DNA of 21,241 nt, from positions 1 to 21,241 of the IMG/VR virus record IMGVR_UViG_3300032088_000111; one strand, 5' to 3'. The notes beneath the pieces are model-generated. The model was not told where the DNA came from, ran no database searches, and worked only from the letters and a program-made list of their open reading frames with translations. This document shows positions 6,512 through 20,072 of the stretch, piece after piece (position 1 is the first letter of the stretch; the number at the start of each line of letters is the position of its first letter). The DNA is from a virus. A program made the translations under genes and the position numbers.

Positions 6512-9340
6512 ATGGCAAACACAAAGATACCAAGTGAACTAATCGCAGACAGTTCGATAACAGCCGCAAAATTAGCGGACGGAACAATCACGACTGCTGA
6601 TATTGCAGACAGTAATGTTACTACTGCAAAAATTGCAGATAGTAATGTAACTACTGCAAAGATAGGTGATGCCCAAGTAACGACAGCTAAGATTACAGAC
6701 GCAAATGTGACAACTGTAAAGATAGCTGACGACGCAGTAACAACTGCTAAAATGGCAAGTAATTCTGTTACTTCAGATACTATTGCCTCGGGCATAACTT
6801 TAGCTGGTAACACTACTTTTAGTGGAAATATACTAAAAGATTCAGGAGATTTAACACTCGATGTGCCAGGAGCAATTACTTTAGATGCTGGTACTGGAGG
6901 AACTGGAATAGTTTTTGCAGATGATGGAACAAGTTTTGGTAGTTTAAAAGGATTACCTGCAGCACCTACAAGACTTATAGTAAATTCTGCAGCTACAGCA
7001 GGTTATCTATCTGTTGCAGGAACGGAATATTTTGCATGGAATACTACTGATATTCGTCCAGCTCAATCCAATATGAACTTAGGCGTAGATGGTGCATCTT
7101 GGAATGATTTATATATAACAGGAGATATAAAAACTACTTCAGGAGACCTTACACTCGATGTAGCAGGAGATATTAATCTAGATGCGGATGGTGGTAGTGT
7201 ATTTTTTAAAGATGCAGGAACTGAATTTTTTAAAGTTCGCAAAGTTGGTACTACTCATGTACAATTATATTCTGCTCAAAACAATGTTGATATAAAATTT
7301 GAAGGTGTTGATGATGGTGTAGGTTTTGCAGCCTTGACTCTTGATATGTCAGAGGCAGGTGCGGCTACTTTTAATTCGACTGTTACCTTAACAAACACAC
7401 TATCAATAAATGGCTCCACTGCTCAAGCATTTCTACAAACTAGTAGTAATGTTTTTCAGATTGGTACATCTTCAAATGACCCAGTAGATTTCTACGCAAA
7501 TAATACTCGCCATATGAGTTTAAGGTCTGATGGTGAGTTCATCGTTAATGAGCAGGGAAATGCAGAAGGAGATTTTAGAGTTGAGTCAGATACTAATACT
7601 CATGCACTATTTGTTGATGCCAGCGAAAATACAGTTGGAATTGGAACAGATAGTCCAACAAAGTTACTCCATGTAAATGGTCAAGCACAATTTGAAAACA
7701 ATATTATTTTAAATGAAAATACTCCAGCTTTGGTTATCCCAAATGGAGATTTTAGGCTATTTACTGGTGGCTCAGAAACATTAAGAGTAACTTCAGGAAG
7801 AAATTTACAATTTATTGCTAAAACAACAAACTTTGAAAGTCCAGGATTTACTTATCATACAAATAATTATCTATACCTAAGAGGAGGAACTTCAGGATTA
7901 ATTTTATCTGACGATTCTGGGATTAATACTATACAAATTATTGATGGCTCAAGTGGGTATATTAATTTTGAAACTAGTGATGGCTCATCAAAAATGCATC
8001 TTGCTAGTGATGGCGCCCTAACTTTAAAACCTAATGGTATAACTACAGGATTACGATTACAAGGTCGTTCATCAGATAATAATTTCTATATTCAATTTAA
8101 AAGTAATGATGGAAATACTACTTATTCATCAATAGGTACAGATAGCGCAAATACTGCTCTTTTCTATCAATCAAATACTCACAAATTCCAAAATAGTGCT
8201 AGTAATATTACTTATATGACTATTGATTCTTCAGGCAATGTTGGAATTGCTGCTATTCCTTCAGGAGAAGCTGCTGCTGCTCATGTTGTAAGACTAGGTG
8301 ATAAAGTATGTATTGCTGAATATGACGATGGCTCTAATCCTGAACAGTTTAATCTTTTCCATAATTCAGATTCTTCTGAAACATATATAGAAACAGGTTA
8401 TGCAACAAATATTCAACAAAGAAATGGTGAAATAACTTTTAAAACTGCTGCATCAGGAAGTGCAGGAGCTGCTATTACCTTTAGTGACAAACTAAAAATA
8501 CTTAATAATGGCAATGTTGGTATCGGTACAACGACGGCTCCATTAGGAAAATTATCTGTTGGTGCAGGTTCAATAAATGACGCAGGACTACCAATACAAA
8601 TAAGTACAGGTGCAGATGGAACACAAGCTTGGTATGCAGTCAATAGAAATGGTGCTTATGGAGCTTTATTTGGTTACTCAGCTAGTTCAACTTATAAAGG
8701 GCTAGTACTTAGAAATGTTGTTTCAAGTGGAACAGCTAATGCGGACGGCATTTCTTTCATGACGAACAATAGTTCTATGCGTATGCATATTACAGGCGAT
8801 GGCAAAGTTGGTATTGGAACAGATGACCCATACAGCAAGTTACAGGTATCAGGTACAGTCTCATCAGGTACAAATACAAAACCCACTCACGCTGTTTATG
8901 ATAATAGCGGTAATATGAAATCTTTTGAGCATGTGTTTAGTGCTACTAAAGGCACAGCATCAGGAGCATTAAATAAAACGTTAGTAGATGTGAGCGGTCT
9001 TAGTAATTTTCATCAAGCTATTTTTATAGTAGAATATGCCACTAGATTACAGGCTGTGAGTGATTCTACAACAGGATTTGTGCATAGAGTGTATGCACTT
9101 AATAGATTTAATGGGGGCAATTTAAATGTCACAGAAACAACCGCAATAGCAGGAAGCAGTAATTCTTTAGCTCACGCATTAGTTAATGTCGAGATAGTAA
9201 GTAATACACAATATAGAATAAGAGTAGAGTTTAGTAACTCTATCACTTCTTCAAGCTTTGCGTCTGGCACAATTAGAGCATATGGAGCTTCGGATTACTT
9301 TCCGACTATATCCTTTGCAGAAGGAATGGGGAATACATAA
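6512..9340 (+). CDS. Tail fibre protein 3 (942 aa), decapeptide-repeat N-terminus
   Basis: Third fibre paralogue. It begins MANTKIPSEL like fibre 2, then has eight very regular ten-residue repeats from residue 11 to 90 (consensus I-A-D-x-x-V-T-T-A-K). Next come stretches shared with fibre 2 (SGDLTLDVAGDINLDADGG, LDMSEAG) and VGIGT units (TVGIGTDSPTKLLHV, GNVGIGTTTAPLGKLSV, KVGIGTDDPYSKLQV). The last ~150 residues, beginning near FEHVFSATKGTASG, form a tip unlike those of fibres 1 and 2, ending FPTISFAEGMGNT. No S74 motif is seen. It is the last gene of the rightward block; a strong hairpin terminator starts 20 nt after the stop. As in the other two, the N-terminus presumably docks on the virion and the C-terminus binds the host; that is inference from fibre architecture. 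Confidence 0.85.
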   Translation: MANTKIPSELIADSSITAAKLADGTITTADIADSNVTTAKIADSNVTTAKIGDAQVTTAKITDANVTTVKIADDAVTTAKMASNSVTSDTIASGITLAGNTTFSGNILKDSGDLTLDVPGAITLDAGTGGTGIVFADDGTSFGSLKGLPAAPTRLIVNSAATAGYLSVAGTEYFAWNTTDIRPAQSNMNLGVDGASWNDLYITGDIKTTSGDLTLDVAGDINLDADGGSVFFKDAGTEFFKVRKVGTTHVQLYSAQNNVDIKFEGVDDGVGFAALTLDMSEAGAATFNSTVTLTNTLSINGSTAQAFLQTSSNVFQIGTSSNDPVDFYANNTRHMSLRSDGEFIVNEQGNAEGDFRVESDTNTHALFVDASENTVGIGTDSPTKLLHVNGQAQFENNIILNENTPALVIPNGDFRLFTGGSETLRVTSGRNLQFIAKTTNFESPGFTYHTNNYLYLRGGTSGLILSDDSGINTIQIIDGSSGYINFETSDGSSKMHLASDGALTLKPNGITTGLRLQGRSSDNNFYIQFKSNDGNTTYSSIGTDSANTALFYQSNTHKFQNSASNITYMTIDSSGNVGIAAIPSGEAAAAHVVRLGDKVCIAEYDDGSNPEQFNLFHNSDSSETYIETGYATNIQQRNGEITFKTAASGSAGAAITFSDKLKILNNGNVGIGTTTAPLGKLSVGAGSINDAGLPIQISTGADGTQAWYAVNRNGAYGALFGYSASSTYKGLVLRNVVSSGTANADGISFMTNNSSMRMHITGDGKVGIGTDDPYSKLQVSGTVSSGTNTKPTHAVYDNSGNMKSFEHVFSATKGTASGALNKTLVDVSGLSNFHQAIFIVEYATRLQAVSDSTTGFVHRVYALNRFNGGNLNVTETTAIAGSSNSLAHALVNVEIVSNTQYRIRVEFSNSITSSSFASGTIRAYGASDYFPTISFAEGMGNT
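6542..6781 (+). repeat. Eight in-register 30-bp coding repeats of fibre 3
   Basis: Codons 11-90 encode eight ten-residue units. Two neighbours, 6602-6631 and 6632-6661, are identical at protein level (IADSNVTTAK) and differ at only three of 30 bases, so this is the least diverged part of any of the three arrays and could expand or contract by slippage or recombination without shifting frame. Confidence 0.85.
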
Positions 9341-15785: not shown

Positions 15786-16710
15786 TAAACACTCCCATTA
15801 TTGATTTAATTTTTTCATCATTTAAATTTAGTATAGCACTTAAGTACTCTACCAGTTCTTCTTCCATTGACATCTCTTTAAGATTAAGTGTAGCTTCTGT
15901 ACTTCGTTTTACTACTTTCTTATCCAAGAGTTCTGAGTTCTTGATGTTAGCCAAATCAGCTACATCACCCTCTATCTCGTAGATAGTATGGTGAAAATCT
16001 GTTGCAATCATTTCATCTTCACTTTCTACTGTTCTTCTCAATAATTGAGGTAAATTAAATTCTTCCCAATGCCAAGAGTCATCAGCTTCGTCAATTAAAA
16101 GATAGCCCGTCTTGACTACATCTCTGTGAAAAGATGTAGTCATAGGACTACCTGGATATACAATATTTCTCTGCGTATTGGAGTGGCTATGTAGGTCACC
16201 CGCGTATACTACAGGAAAGTCATTGAATCTATCCAAGTCAACCTCTGGAGTTACATGAGGGGGTATTTCACCCCTTACATGTGTGTACAAAGGTTTGTTG
16301 GTATTGCAGAACTCTATACCACCTTTTCTATGCAAGTCTGCATAAGGTAGTATAGTTCCCCATATATATTCTGTGGTTGTATCTACAATTTCAACTAAAG
16401 GATTTACATCAGATGTCGCTCTCTTTAGATTACTAAAGAATGTCTTGTGCTTTTTTGTTGCTTCATGGTTACCATCATAAATAATGGTAGGTATAGTTAC
16501 ATCTTTGATAAAATCAAAGTAAAGTGTAATTTCGTCCATTGAAGGAACACGGTCAAATAAATCTCCACCAATAATGTGCATACTGATATCTTCGTCTTTC
16601 TCTAGCTCATGAATAGCTTCGAAAAACAACTTGTATCTAGTACATGCCCATGCCATAGGGACATTCTTTTGTCCGAGTTTAATGTGCCAATCTGCTGTAA
16701 ATAAAATCAC
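15754..16710 (-). CDS. SbcD/Mre11-like nuclease (T4 gp47-like), 318 aa, GTG start
   Basis: Calcineurin-like metallophosphoesterase partner of the SbcC-like ATPase; together they would degrade or resect DNA ends and process hairpins. Phosphoesterase motifs appear in order: D7-W-H9, G49-D50-x-x-D53 (IIGGDLFDR), G80-N81-H82-E83, H144 (YTHVRGE), and G171-D172-L-H174-S-H176, then YPGSP. The start must be the GTG at 16710, because the next ATG (encoding MAWACTRY) would remove the essential D7/H9 motif. The GTG overlaps the peroxiredoxin stop as GTGA, with AGGAG about 13 nt upstream, so expression depends on read-through translation from the peroxiredoxin gene. The C-terminal ~70 residues are the helical part that would contact the ATPase coiled coil. 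Confidence 0.92.
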   Translation of the reverse strand: MILFTADWHIKLGQKNVPMAWACTRYKLFFEAIHELEKDEDISMHIIGGDLFDRVPSMDEITLYFDFIKDVTIPTIIYDGNHEATKKHKTFFSNLKRATSDVNPLVEIVDTTTEYIWGTILPYADLHRKGGIEFCNTNKPLYTHVRGEIPPHVTPEVDLDRFNDFPVVYAGDLHSHSNTQRNIVYPGSPMTTSFHRDVVKTGYLLIDEADDSWHWEEFNLPQLLRRTVESEDEMIATDFHHTIYEIEGDVADLANIKNSELLDKKVVKRSTEATLNLKEMSMEEELVEYLSAILNLNDEKIKSIMGVFNDYSKEATLG

Positions 16711-17219
16711 CCTACGAAGTCATCTCCTGGCTGCCATGAGCAACCTGTAAGTCCACCACTTTGCAAAGCATTTAGTGTCCTTAGTATTTCTTCTGCATTT
16801 CTTCCTGTGTCAAGTGCATTGACTGAGTAGTGTTGAATTACTCCTTCAGGGTCAATAATGTAAGTAGCTCTGTAAGGAACTCCTTCTTTATCATTATAAA
16901 CACCTAAGTCTTTTGCAAGTTCACTACCTGCGTCGCAGCATAAAGGGTGTTGGATATTTCTTATAATATCATTACTTTCTTTCCAAGCTAATTTACAATA
17001 CTCATTATCAGGACTAAATCCTAATACATCAGCATCAAGTAACAATCTATCCATATCAGCTATTTCTGTTGGGCAAATAAATGTAAAATCTTTTGGGTAG
17101 AAATAAACTACACTCCACATATTTTCTTGAAGCACATCAATATCAATAAGTGTATTATCAATATCAACAGCTACTGCTGAAAAGTCTGGGAATTTGTCTC
17201 CTATCGTATAATCAAACAT
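16707..17219 (-). CDS. 2-Cys peroxiredoxin, AhpC/Prx1 type (170 aa)
   Basis: Thiol peroxidase that reduces hydrogen peroxide and organic peroxides; a host-derived metabolic gene in a phage operon. The active site is intact: P42-x-x-x-T46-x-x-C49 (YPKDFTFICPTE) with peroxidatic C49, and R117 (GVPYRATYIID). C160 (TGCSWQPGDDF) sits where the resolving cysteine of typical 2-Cys enzymes lies, although the usual V-C-P motif is changed to G-C-S. Unusual extra cysteines are C75, C94 and C95 (PLCCDAG), where most relatives have Ser, Ala or Asp. The frame is open to 17279, but the ATG at 17219 has AGGAG 7 nt upstream and gives the standard family N-terminus (IGDKFPDF). It sits 10 nt after ssb and its stop overlaps the start of the SbcD-like gene. 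The reductant is not encoded in this window. Confidence 0.94.
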   Translation of the reverse strand: MFDYTIGDKFPDFSAVAVDIDNTLIDIDVLQENMWSVVYFYPKDFTFICPTEIADMDRLLLDADVLGFSPDNEYCKLAWKESNDIIRNIQHPLCCDAGSELAKDLGVYNDKEGVPYRATYIIDPEGVIQHYSVNALDTGRNAEEILRTLNALQSGGLTGCSWQPGDDFVG

Positions 17220-17226
17220 AATTTTT

Positions 17227-17231
17227 CTCCT
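17227..17231 (-). promoter_or_regulatory. Ribosome-binding site that fixes the peroxiredoxin start
   Basis: AGGAG on the minus strand, 7 nt before the ATG at 17219 and overlapping the TAG of the ssb-like gene. It supports the 170-aa product over the version 20 residues longer. Confidence 0.8.
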
Positions 17232-17865
17232 AGCTAATGCTGAACTCTGAATCAACATCTGAAGGAGCTTCAGCACCATCAGAAGGTTGTGTTACTCTTT
17301 GCAAAAGCTCAAGCTGAGCATCTGCTGTTGGTCTTGGCAAGACATCGTCCATAGAACGAATATCAGCAATTTTTGCTACTTCTTCTTCTGTAAGAGGTCT
17401 TGGTTTGCACTTAAGTGCTTGTAGTCTGTACTCGACATTAAATGCCATAGGTCCAGTTTTAACTCTTTGGAAGCAAACGTCCCACCCATTCTCAGGGTCG
17501 GTTGGGTCGCCTAAATCTTCGGCAGCTACCATAATTTGTTCCATTAGTTTTTTCTTTAGATTAACAACTTTTACATTGCCATCAGTCGGGTCAATAGCTT
17601 GAATAGCATATGCCCAACCACATTTTAAGTCAGGAAAGAAAGACCTTACGTGGTCTGTTTCCTTGTTATTGAATGTTTCTGTATTTCTGTCAAAAGCTAA
17701 GCACTCCATAGGAATGTTTTTACCATTTTCACCTTTAATCCAGTAAACATATCTCGGCAGTATATCTCCTACTAGACGAAACTTGTTGTCTCCTTCTTTG
17801 TAAGTGTACTGGTCGATTTTATCTTTCTTTGCAGACCCTTGAGCCTGATTAAATTTTATTGCCAT
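17230..17865 (-). CDS. Single-stranded DNA-binding protein, phage type (211 aa)
   Basis: Probably the phage ssDNA-binding protein. It would coat single strands at the replication fork and recruit the polymerase and recombination proteins around it. The N-terminus is basic (MAIKFNQAQGSAKKDK). Residues ~25-155 look like an OB-type core rich in aromatic residues (DNKFRLVGDILPRYVYW, FFPDLKCGWAYAI, and GWDVCFQRVKTGPMAFNVEY). The C-terminus is an acidic, flexible tail (DGAEAPSDVDSEFSIS) like those of gp32, gp2.5 and bacterial SSBs that bind partner proteins. No zinc ligands like those of T4 gp32 are evident. The ATG directly abuts the TAA of the gene upstream, with GGAGAA nearby, so translation is probably coupled. 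It is one of two genes close behind the strong promoter at 18267-18295, which fits the high demand for SSB. Confidence 0.72.
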   Translation of the reverse strand: MAIKFNQAQGSAKKDKIDQYTYKEGDNKFRLVGDILPRYVYWIKGENGKNIPMECLAFDRNTETFNNKETDHVRSFFPDLKCGWAYAIQAIDPTDGNVKVVNLKKKLMEQIMVAAEDLGDPTDPENGWDVCFQRVKTGPMAFNVEYRLQALKCKPRPLTEEEVAKIADIRSMDDVLPRPTADAQLELLQRVTQPSDGAEAPSDVDSEFSIS

Positions 17866-18264
17866 TTATGTTCTCCATTTAGCGTTATCTTCAAATAGAA
17901 AGTGTACTAGACCATTCTCTATCCGAAGCAATCTGTTGCGATTTACTATCGTTGTCGTTACAGGCAAATGTATCAACTCTAGTGTTGTTTGTCCTGTTTG
18001 TTTATAATTAAAATAATTTCGGTACGAAGCTACTGCGATATACTCCGCAGCTTCTTTATTGCTATAATTTCTTCGCTCTGCTAGTAATTGTCGAGGGTTT
18101 AGCAAAAAACTATCACCGACGAACGACTTCCCAAAATATTTATAGGTGTTGTCTTTTCTACTAGCAGGGATTCTCTTATAAGTTAATAAATGAATGATAG
18201 TAAGTATAGAAGTTGAATCTCCTTTGGTCTCACTATTTATCTTTTCCCAATTATATTTTATCAT
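17866..18264 (-). CDS. Conserved-looking phage protein of unknown function (132 aa)
   Basis: I do not recognise a named family. The protein starts MIKYNWEKINSETKGD and has a helical N-terminal half (TIIHLLTYKRIPASRK). The segment GKSFVGDSFLLNPRQLL is followed by YSNKEAAEYIAVASYRNYF and a beta-type end (ENGLVHFLFEDNAKW). It is basic and soluble, with no membrane segment. The ATG at 18264 has no Shine-Dalgarno sequence and lies only two bases after the -10 box of a strong promoter, and there is no in-frame ATG, GTG or TTG for the next ~50 codons. Translation would have to be leaderless or come from read-through RNA. Its TAA abuts the ssb ATG, pointing to a replication-linked role by position only. 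Confidence 0.68.
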   Translation of the reverse strand: MIKYNWEKINSETKGDSTSILTIIHLLTYKRIPASRKDNTYKYFGKSFVGDSFLLNPRQLLAERRNYSNKEAAEYIAVASYRNYFNYKQTGQTTLELIHLPVTTTIVNRNRLLRIENGLVHFLFEDNAKWRT

Positions 18265-18266
18265 AT

Positions 18267-18295
18267 ATTATAACAATTTTTTAAACCCATGTCAA
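18267..18295 (-). promoter_or_regulatory. Consensus sigma-70 promoter with extended -10, driving the ssb/recombination operon
   Basis: On the minus strand: -35 TTGACA (18295-18290), a 17-bp spacer, and -10 TATAAT (18272-18267) preceded by TGT, which makes an extended -10. All twelve hexamer bases match the bacterial housekeeping consensus. It lies in the only intergenic gap (18265-18315) of the leftward block, starting 20 bp after the helicase stop. The expected start point, 6-7 nt past the -10, is at about 18261-18260, just inside the first codons of the 132-aa gene. Confidence 0.88.
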
Positions 18296-18315
18296 GTAAT
18301 ATTTTTCGGAGGTCC

Positions 18316-19596
18316 TTATAAGGTTGATATTTCATAACCCTGCTTGAGGTAGTAGCCTAGTCGTAAACTAGCCTGCCTCTTTGCGGTCTTTCCAATTAAA
18401 TTAATATCTACTACTACGGGTTGTTGTTTTCCTTCGTAATCTCTAATTATTCTTCCAATGAGCTGTGTAAGTAACGGCTCGTTATTTACTGGTGTTGCTA
18501 ATATTAAACAGCTAAGAATATTTAAAGAAATACCCTCAGAGAAGATAGACTGTGTCCCATACAGAACATTTTTATCCTCAAAAATCTGATTAATTATATC
18601 GGCTCTATCCTCGTGATGGATTTTGCCCGTTACACAAACTGCGCTATCACCAGTGAGTTCCGCGCAGTTCCTGAGGAAGTCTACTCTATCAGATACTACT
18701 AACACTTTATGACCTTTGGCCGCATACGATGATGCAGTCATAGCCACAGAATGTTGATACTCTGGGTTGTAGGCTAACTCATTTATTCGATTGGCCCAAG
18801 GTATTCCATTTCCGTCCATGAACCTTATAGCCATGGGTAGGATATGAACTTTAGGCATCATAAAGTTTTCCTTTGGTGGTTTTAAAACATTATCTCCAAA
18901 GTAATCACGAAACACTACATGTCTACCATCTTTTCTTTGTAATGTTCCTGTAAGTCCTATTTTATACCTTGCACAATTTTTATCTATAATTCTAGAAAAA
19001 GTAGGAGCACTACAATGGTGCATTTCGTCAAGAATAAGAGTACCGAACTCTTGTCTAATTTTTGGAATCTTTCTATACAAACTCTGTATATTCCCAATAA
19101 CGATTTGCTTATCAAGTTCAAATTTTCCACTACCTATAATTCCTGCTTTAAATCCAAATACTTTTTCTACTTCATCCTCCCACTGCTTTCTTAGAGCTAA
19201 AGTGTGGGTAACTACTAATGTTTTTTGTCCTAGTTTGCCAGCTATTGCAAGACCTGTAAATGTCTTACCCCAACTTACCCAAGCGTTAATAATGCCGCCA
19301 TCTCCAATCTCATCATATACTGATTGTTGGCTTGGTCTTAATGTCAAATTAAACTTGGGGAAGTCTACTGGTTTTACTACTCTCTTATCTACTACTTCGT
19401 GGTCTGCAGGGATTAGGTCTATTCTGCCCACCGGTATAGCTACCAATCCCTGTCTTATAAGTGCCATATTTTTTATAATGAGTGGTGGGTCACCGAACTT
19501 AAACGAAGGTATGGCATACGTAAGTTCGTCATCAATCTTTTTCTGTTGTGCAGGCAGTACTTCTATATAAATTCTGTCGCTTATAACTGCCTTCAT
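18316..19596 (-). CDS. SF2 DEXH helicase, UvsW-like (426 aa)
   Basis: Superfamily 2 DNA helicase/translocase similar in layout to T4 UvsW and bacterial RadD/XPB-like enzymes. In phages these remodel stalled forks and recombination intermediates. Motifs in order (426-aa numbering): LRPSQQSVYD (Q-motif-like, ~86), Walker A A105-WVSWGKT (~105-112), VVTHTLALRKQW (Ia, ~128-139), DEXH box D190-E-M-H193 (LILDEMHH), motif III GLTGTLQRKDG (~214), and motif VI QLIGRIIRD near the C-terminus. An N-terminal ~80-residue domain (DRIYIEVLP, GRIDLIPADH) precedes the helicase core. The ATG at 19596 forms an ATGA overlap with the gene upstream and has GGAG 6 nt before it; a TTG four codons further up is less likely. 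No terminator is seen after the stop. Confidence 0.9.
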   Translation of the reverse strand: MKAVISDRIYIEVLPAQQKKIDDELTYAIPSFKFGDPPLIIKNMALIRQGLVAIPVGRIDLIPADHEVVDKRVVKPVDFPKFNLTLRPSQQSVYDEIGDGGIINAWVSWGKTFTGLAIAGKLGQKTLVVTHTLALRKQWEDEVEKVFGFKAGIIGSGKFELDKQIVIGNIQSLYRKIPKIRQEFGTLILDEMHHCSAPTFSRIIDKNCARYKIGLTGTLQRKDGRHVVFRDYFGDNVLKPPKENFMMPKVHILPMAIRFMDGNGIPWANRINELAYNPEYQHSVAMTASSYAAKGHKVLVVSDRVDFLRNCAELTGDSAVCVTGKIHHEDRADIINQIFEDKNVLYGTQSIFSEGISLNILSCLILATPVNNEPLLTQLIGRIIRDYEGKQQPVVVDINLIGKTAKRQASLRLGYYLKQGYEISTL

Positions 19597-20072
19597 ATCT
19601 TTCTCCAAGAATCCTTTTTCTTTGTAGGACTTGTATCATAAACTAACCAAGGAGCTCCATCTCTGTATAGCATGCCTGCCCATGCTTCGCTACCCGCCAA
19701 GGGTCTGTCTATATCAAAAGGGTATGGGCAGCCTTTTATCCACAACACGCTTGTAACAATTCTTTGGTCTACTCGTTTTATTTTGTGATATTTTAGCGGA
19801 GCTTTAGTATTTTTATTTTTGACAAACCATTTTCCAGTACTATCTATATAATACTTACCTTGATGTTCAAGATAACCTCTAATACTTTTAATCATAGATT
19901 TTAAAGGATATATACTTTTCATTGGCGTTTGTATTCTTCTCATGCCTAAAGTTTCTCCTTTCATGTTAGTATCATCTAACACTTGGTTTTCTATCCATAA
20001 TATACCATCTATGAGCATTATATCGTCTGTGTGTAGTACAAAGATGGGGAATTTTATTTTATCATATATCAT
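19593..20072 (-). CDS. Protein of unknown function between polA and the helicase (159 aa)
   Basis: No family is recognised. It begins MIYDKIKFPIFVLHTDD and contains a Met/Lys-rich stretch (MRRIQTPMKSIYPLKSMIKS). A small strand-rich part follows (GKYYIDSTGKWFVKNK), then SVLWIKGCPYPFDIDRP and PWLVYDTSPTKKKDSWRKI. The many aromatic residues and basic C-terminus could suit a nucleic-acid contact surface, but that is only compositional. The ATG at 20072 lies within the last codons of polA (11-nt overlap); a TTG at 20084 is possible but less likely. Its stop overlaps the helicase start as ATGA. The position locked between polymerase and helicase suggests a replication accessory. Confidence 0.7.
   Translation of the reverse strand: MIYDKIKFPIFVLHTDDIMLIDGILWIENQVLDDTNMKGETLGMRRIQTPMKSIYPLKSMIKSIRGYLEHQGKYYIDSTGKWFVKNKNTKAPLKYHKIKRVDQRIVTSVLWIKGCPYPFDIDRPLAGSEAWAGMLYRDGAPWLVYDTSPTKKKDSWRKI

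Follow-up and report, generated by a model that had tools for sequence, protein, structure and literature searches.

Genes and promoter at the locus

The window, by which we mean the whole 21,241-nt stretch of DNA analysed here, is part of the genome of a marine T5-like phage (a 21.2 kb virus record). Its leftward gene block encodes DNA polymerase, a D10-like helicase, a 132-aa frame, a single-stranded DNA-binding protein (ssb), peroxiredoxin, SbcD/SbcC-like nucleases and a 5'-3' exonuclease, together with what we take from its sequence to be a ribonucleotide reductase. This content is that of the replication and recombination genes of T5-like phages. The D10-like helicase gene (18316-19608, minus strand) carries the Pfam domains ResIII and Helicase_C, has T5-like D10 matches (43% identity) and overlaps its own upstream gene. 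The T5 D11-like ssb gene (17230-17865, minus strand) matches phrog_1607, single strand DNA binding protein (E 4e-29), and has a GGAG Shine-Dalgarno sequence at 17873-17876 (minus strand). The order D10 - T5.125 - ssb is T5-like. Inside the replication block, a peroxiredoxin (AhpC/TSA) gene at 16707-17222 (minus strand) separates ssb from the SbcD-like nuclease gene. As originally predicted, the leftward block has only one sizeable gap, the 51 nt at 18315-18265 between the helicase gene and the 132-aa frame; the next largest measures 7 nt. No minus-strand terminator was called between these two genes.

The 132-aa frame (17866-18264, minus strand) belongs to the T5.125 family (phrog_4258) by a full-length profile match (PHROG E 3e-21, residues 1-127 on profile positions 1-118) and by its T5-like gene order. 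We looked for homologues that start clearly downstream, which the original prediction had named as evidence against itself, and found that they instead begin at the same residue as the 132-aa protein (Salmonella phage GSW6, MIFFDYEKI; window, MIKYNWEKI), and thus the ATG at 18264-18262 is the true start. An AlphaFold model of the protein (pLDDT 92.7) includes the N-terminal strand as part of the fold, which makes an N-terminally truncated product unlikely. A comparison of this model with the PDB gave no match below E 2.7, and a viral structure library returned uncharacterised proteins only, apparently relatives. No Shine-Dalgarno sequence was found upstream of 18264, and the first later in-frame start-type codon is a TTG at codon 54, for which reason we rejected a downstream alternative start; both absences had been claimed beforehand.

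The gap holds a promoter on the minus strand that consists of a TTGACA -35 element (18290-18295), a 17-bp spacer (18289-18273) and an extended -10, TGTTATAAT (18267-18275), in which TG at 18275-18274 lies inside the spacer and the hexamer TATAAT occupies 18272-18267. With TG before the -10 and a 17-bp spacer, it matches the sigma-70 consensus at 12/12 positions. The scanned part of the window contains no other 12/12 promoter, and the window as a whole no other exact -35/N17/-10 match; about 0.04-0.06 such matches per window are expected by chance. The ATG of the 132-aa frame (18262-18264, minus strand) follows the -10 after 2 nt (AT) and lies upstream of the predicted +1. The same geometry occurs in close and distant relatives, in agreement with the near-perfect sigma-70 promoter abutting an ATG that had been predicted, and we conclude that the promoter, like its overlap with the start codon, is genuine and conserved. 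Upstream of the -35, a ACCTCCGAAAAAT block (18301-18313, minus strand) is near-invariant in the window clade; its A-tract is the counterpart of AAAAATAGTTC, found ahead of most other promoters of these phages, and its function would appear to be UP-element-like. Ahead of the A-tract, the ACCTCC at 18308-18313 (minus strand) hardly varies within the window clade, although it falls outside known promoter elements; it reads GGAGGT on the other strand.

Spacing between the -10 and the start codon

Aligning the promoter-ATG spacing in related phages had been proposed as a check on the original prediction. All of the loci from our first search keep the -10, two nucleotides and ATG (80/80), as do those checked from a later search (13/13). 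Anchoring a search on the helicase brought in environmental phages of much greater diversity. An HMM census placed the start codon 0-3 nt after TATAAT in 148 distinct T5-like junctions (offset 0 in 31, 1 in 30, 2 in 85 and 3 in 2). Leadered relatives in the same census have it 19-42 nt after TATAAT. The census contained no start codon at offsets 4-18, and none was found at 5-18 in any junction examined; one cultured Klebsiella phage has offset 4, showing that the edge at 3 is not absolute. Other cultured phages fall within the range, Serratia phage Slocum at offset 2 and Enterobacter KKP_3711 at offset 1 with a TTG start. A stricter set of 140 distinct near-type junctions has TATAAT throughout (140/140), a 17-bp spacer in all except one (139/140) and either TTGACA (130/140) or TTGACT (10/140) as the -35.

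Predicted start of the promoter RNA

Escherichia coli RNA polymerase initiates 6, 7, 8 and 9 bp after the -10 with probabilities of 3, 70, 23 and 4%, respectively (PMC5730371). The corresponding bases in the window are 18261 A, 18260 T, 18259 A and 18258 A, and by this rule the transcription start region is predicted at 18258-18261 (minus strand) with a modal start at 18260, the seventh base. The ATG occupies positions 3-5 after the -10, ahead of the expected +1 at 6-9. A second line of evidence comes from 88 other distinct promoters of these phages, 25 of which have an ATG 6 nt after the -10 and 12 at 7-8 nt; the rest have leaders mostly of 22-33 nt, many with a Shine-Dalgarno sequence. We infer that the 6-nt genes are of leaderless type, which puts +1 at the seventh base after the -10. 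The polymerase position rule and the 6-nt class each imply that RNA from the window promoter begins at about 18260 and should lack the start codon of the 132-aa frame, in line with the predicted start at 18261 or 18260, past the ATG. Its basis is the behaviour of the E. coli enzyme and the presumed leaderless class, which makes this +1 a predicted one.

Several T5-like environmental phages (L230:12303-12839 and L230:16058-17017, both plus strand; L316; L083-L090) have genes that lack a Shine-Dalgarno sequence and whose ATG follows a perfect -10 by exactly 6 nt. They encode an NAD-dependent ligase subunit, a phrog_624 DNA-binding protein, a PPK2-like kinase and small ORFs, and look like a class of leaderless mRNAs. 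L230, a related 91-kb phage contig, also encodes a small protein (7199-7456, minus strand) with a weak GcrA match below the Pfam cutoff, a possible sign of an alphaproteobacterial host.

Start codon type and Shine-Dalgarno sequences

The near-type junctions use ATG (122), GTG (15) or TTG (3) as start codon. In all 18 of the distinct GTG or TTG starts the promoter spacer has, at its 3' end, AAGGA, AAGGAG, AAGGAGG, AGGAG or GAGAG, with Shine-Dalgarno duplexes of -4.4 to -12.9 kcal/mol; ATG-start homologues mostly have no Shine-Dalgarno sequence (average -0.9, best -5.3 kcal/mol). Because the spacer lies upstream of the -10, a Shine-Dalgarno sequence there is usable only in RNA begun further upstream. 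When 44 related phages were placed on a DNA tree, the start type agreed with the Shine-Dalgarno sequence in 44/44, with at least four supported changes that always occur together (sign test on the four supported change pairs, p 0.125). We prefer this tree-based count to a Mann-Whitney test of Shine-Dalgarno against start codon (p 3.6e-12), which ignores relatedness. As a pattern the match is strong; the independent events behind it are few.

Constraint and structure ahead of ssb

Two parts of the T5.125-like frame are constrained in the window clade. Codons 2-9 (18238-18261, minus strand) have a relative codon heterozygosity of 0.03 against an ORF mean of 0.57, the lowest of all codon windows, and synonymous variation nearly disappears again at 17869-17982 (minus strand; codons about 95-132), just before ssb. 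A hairpin is predicted within this second zone at 17928-17889 (minus strand), upstream of the ssb Shine-Dalgarno sequence (hairpin fold z -2.6, region z -3.5). The matching segment of a sister clade folds at -12.7 kcal/mol compared with -9.2 for codon-permuted sequences (z -4.6, 15 dissimilar representatives), though control segments of that clade also have negative z, codons 91-107 even -6.3. RNAalifold gave weak covariation for the ssb leader, with 1/25 pairs changed on both sides, and an Rfam search returned nothing credible. The constraint and the predicted folding suggest a candidate RNA operator before ssb, and the constrained hairpin stretch is possibly a translational operator. In phage T4, gene 32 offers a phage ssb with a structured leader RNA that partly overlaps the upstream reading frame (PMC535899).

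An internal promoter that probably serves ssb

In our interpretation the gap between the helicase and T5.125-like genes would be filled by an internal early promoter of sigma-70 type that corresponds in position to T5 P31B. Initiating roughly 7 nt past TATAAT, within codon 2, its RNA would miss the T5.125 start codon and act as mRNA for ssb and the genes that follow; what is left of the 132-aa frame would form a leader of some 390 nt. Translation of the 132-aa protein would use RNA begun further upstream that reads through the helicase gene. We consider it probable that ssb is served by the internal promoter RNA and the 132-aa protein by read-through RNA; the main product of the promoter is likely ssb. 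The original prediction had offered this arrangement, the frame as ssb leader and the 132-aa protein by read-through, as one of two readings, and the promoter geometry, the pairing of Shine-Dalgarno sequences with start codons and the constrained 3' zone before ssb now support it at the level of sequence. Counted against read-through is that the ATG-type members, the window included, mostly have no Shine-Dalgarno sequence on the read-through RNA either. The purpose would be to raise SSB without raising the T5.125 protein, which, like the RNA 5' end and the relative protein levels, we infer. A switch between two protein sets from one locus, also part of the original prediction, would be plausible.

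Exclusion of the start codon may itself have been selected, such that read-through RNA gives T5.125 and SSB and the internal promoter gives SSB alone, and we hold this tentatively, at somewhat under even odds. Pure genome compaction makes the same RNA prediction and differs in purpose only: the promoter would serve ssb, and the nearness of the ATG would be a by-product of a gap shrunk to a minimal promoter. In most members the helicase stop lies directly before the A-tract, leaving a gap that is little more than the promoter, and we regard compaction as a serious candidate to which we would give around one chance in three. It leaves the empty census offsets of 4-18 unexplained, although 6-8 are common for other genes of these phages, a counterpoint tempered by the Klebsiella phage at offset 4.

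The other reading in the original prediction was a leaderless mRNA with an unusually short discriminator, in which transcription starts at the A of the ATG after 2 nt and the promoter makes the 132-aa protein directly. The lack of a Shine-Dalgarno sequence before the ATG would fit, and the 6-nt leaderless-type genes common in these phages make the ribosome's side of it plausible. However, the offset of the T5.125-like gene drifts over 0-3 and is never 6, the offset of the leaderless-type class in the same phages, and E. coli RNA polymerase essentially never starts 4-6 nt ahead of its modal site (PMC5730371). The GTG and TTG members have their Shine-Dalgarno sequence upstream of the -10; furthermore, leaderless translation from GUG or UUG is poor in E. 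coli and Caulobacter (PMC9031893), so these non-ATG members speak against a leaderless mRNA. Judged by its sequence, the junction does not have the leaderless arrangement of a start codon at or just downstream of +1, and we consider this reading very improbable. Translational coupling from a mini-ORF (ATG at 18290, MGLKNCYNI), whose TGA overlaps the window ATG when read by eye, or reinitiation after the helicase is hardly credible, as 51 nt separate the helicase stop from the ATG and the mini-ORF has no Shine-Dalgarno sequence before it at normal spacing. We rejected the coupling since the mini-ORF is not conserved; many close relatives no longer have its ATG (e.g., ACACGAG in L010-L016).

Under the preferred reading, an internal promoter serving ssb, the promoter in a large group of ocean T5-related viruses probably makes the downstream DNA-binding protein and omits the first protein. 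This small, recurrent arrangement, in which the start codon falls between the -10 and +1, may be enough for one operon to yield its proteins in unequal amounts, with no regulator involved. The geometry is invisible to gene callers, may apply to other compact phage genomes and gives a sharp RNA prediction for cultured T5-like phages. The same survey points to leaderless-type genes in T5-like phages and to a probable AUU start in phage T5.

Comparison with phage T5 and other systems

T5 records annotate two promoters, P31A and P31B, in the D10-T5.125 gap. The two loci share the neighbourhood of D10 helicase, T5.125 and D11 ssb, a sigma-70-type promoter and an A-rich stretch before the -35. T5 differs in having TTGCTA, an 18-bp spacer and a second, upstream promoter; the window has one promoter with a consensus -35 and 17 bp. 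The window promoter thus shares the position of P31B between the D10 helicase and T5.125/D11 but not its Shine-Dalgarno leader, since T5 has a 29-nt T5.125 leader with GAGGAG and the window has its ATG 2 nt after the -10.

The homologous first codon of T5.125 is ATT, not ATG, in 7/7 Tequintavirus-type loci examined. T5.125 of T5 (L446:1596-1958, plus strand; also L443, L445, L447 and L237-L239) appears to start at this ATT (IKFFDYEK) behind GAGGAG, and the T5 annotation places the CDS start 78 nt further downstream, where there is an internal ATG. The T5.125 start in T5 is therefore also handicapped, by a different route. T5 may reach the same end through its AUU start, and both arrangements would keep T5.125 low relative to SSB.

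Leaderless promoter-start fusions such as lambda cI likewise have no Shine-Dalgarno leader and a start codon next to the promoter, but their AUG is at +1, about 6 nt after the -10, and here the start codon lies upstream of +1. As in T4 gene 32 with its translational operator, a phage SSB mRNA would stand behind a leader in an upstream frame; in contrast to gene 32, the operator here would be a candidate, drawn from a predicted hairpin and synonymous constraint. Finally, like other internal promoters of phage operons, the promoter lies within a co-directional block and would boost the downstream genes, and unlike the usual ones its -10 abuts the start codon of the gene it would skip, in 148 distinct junctions.
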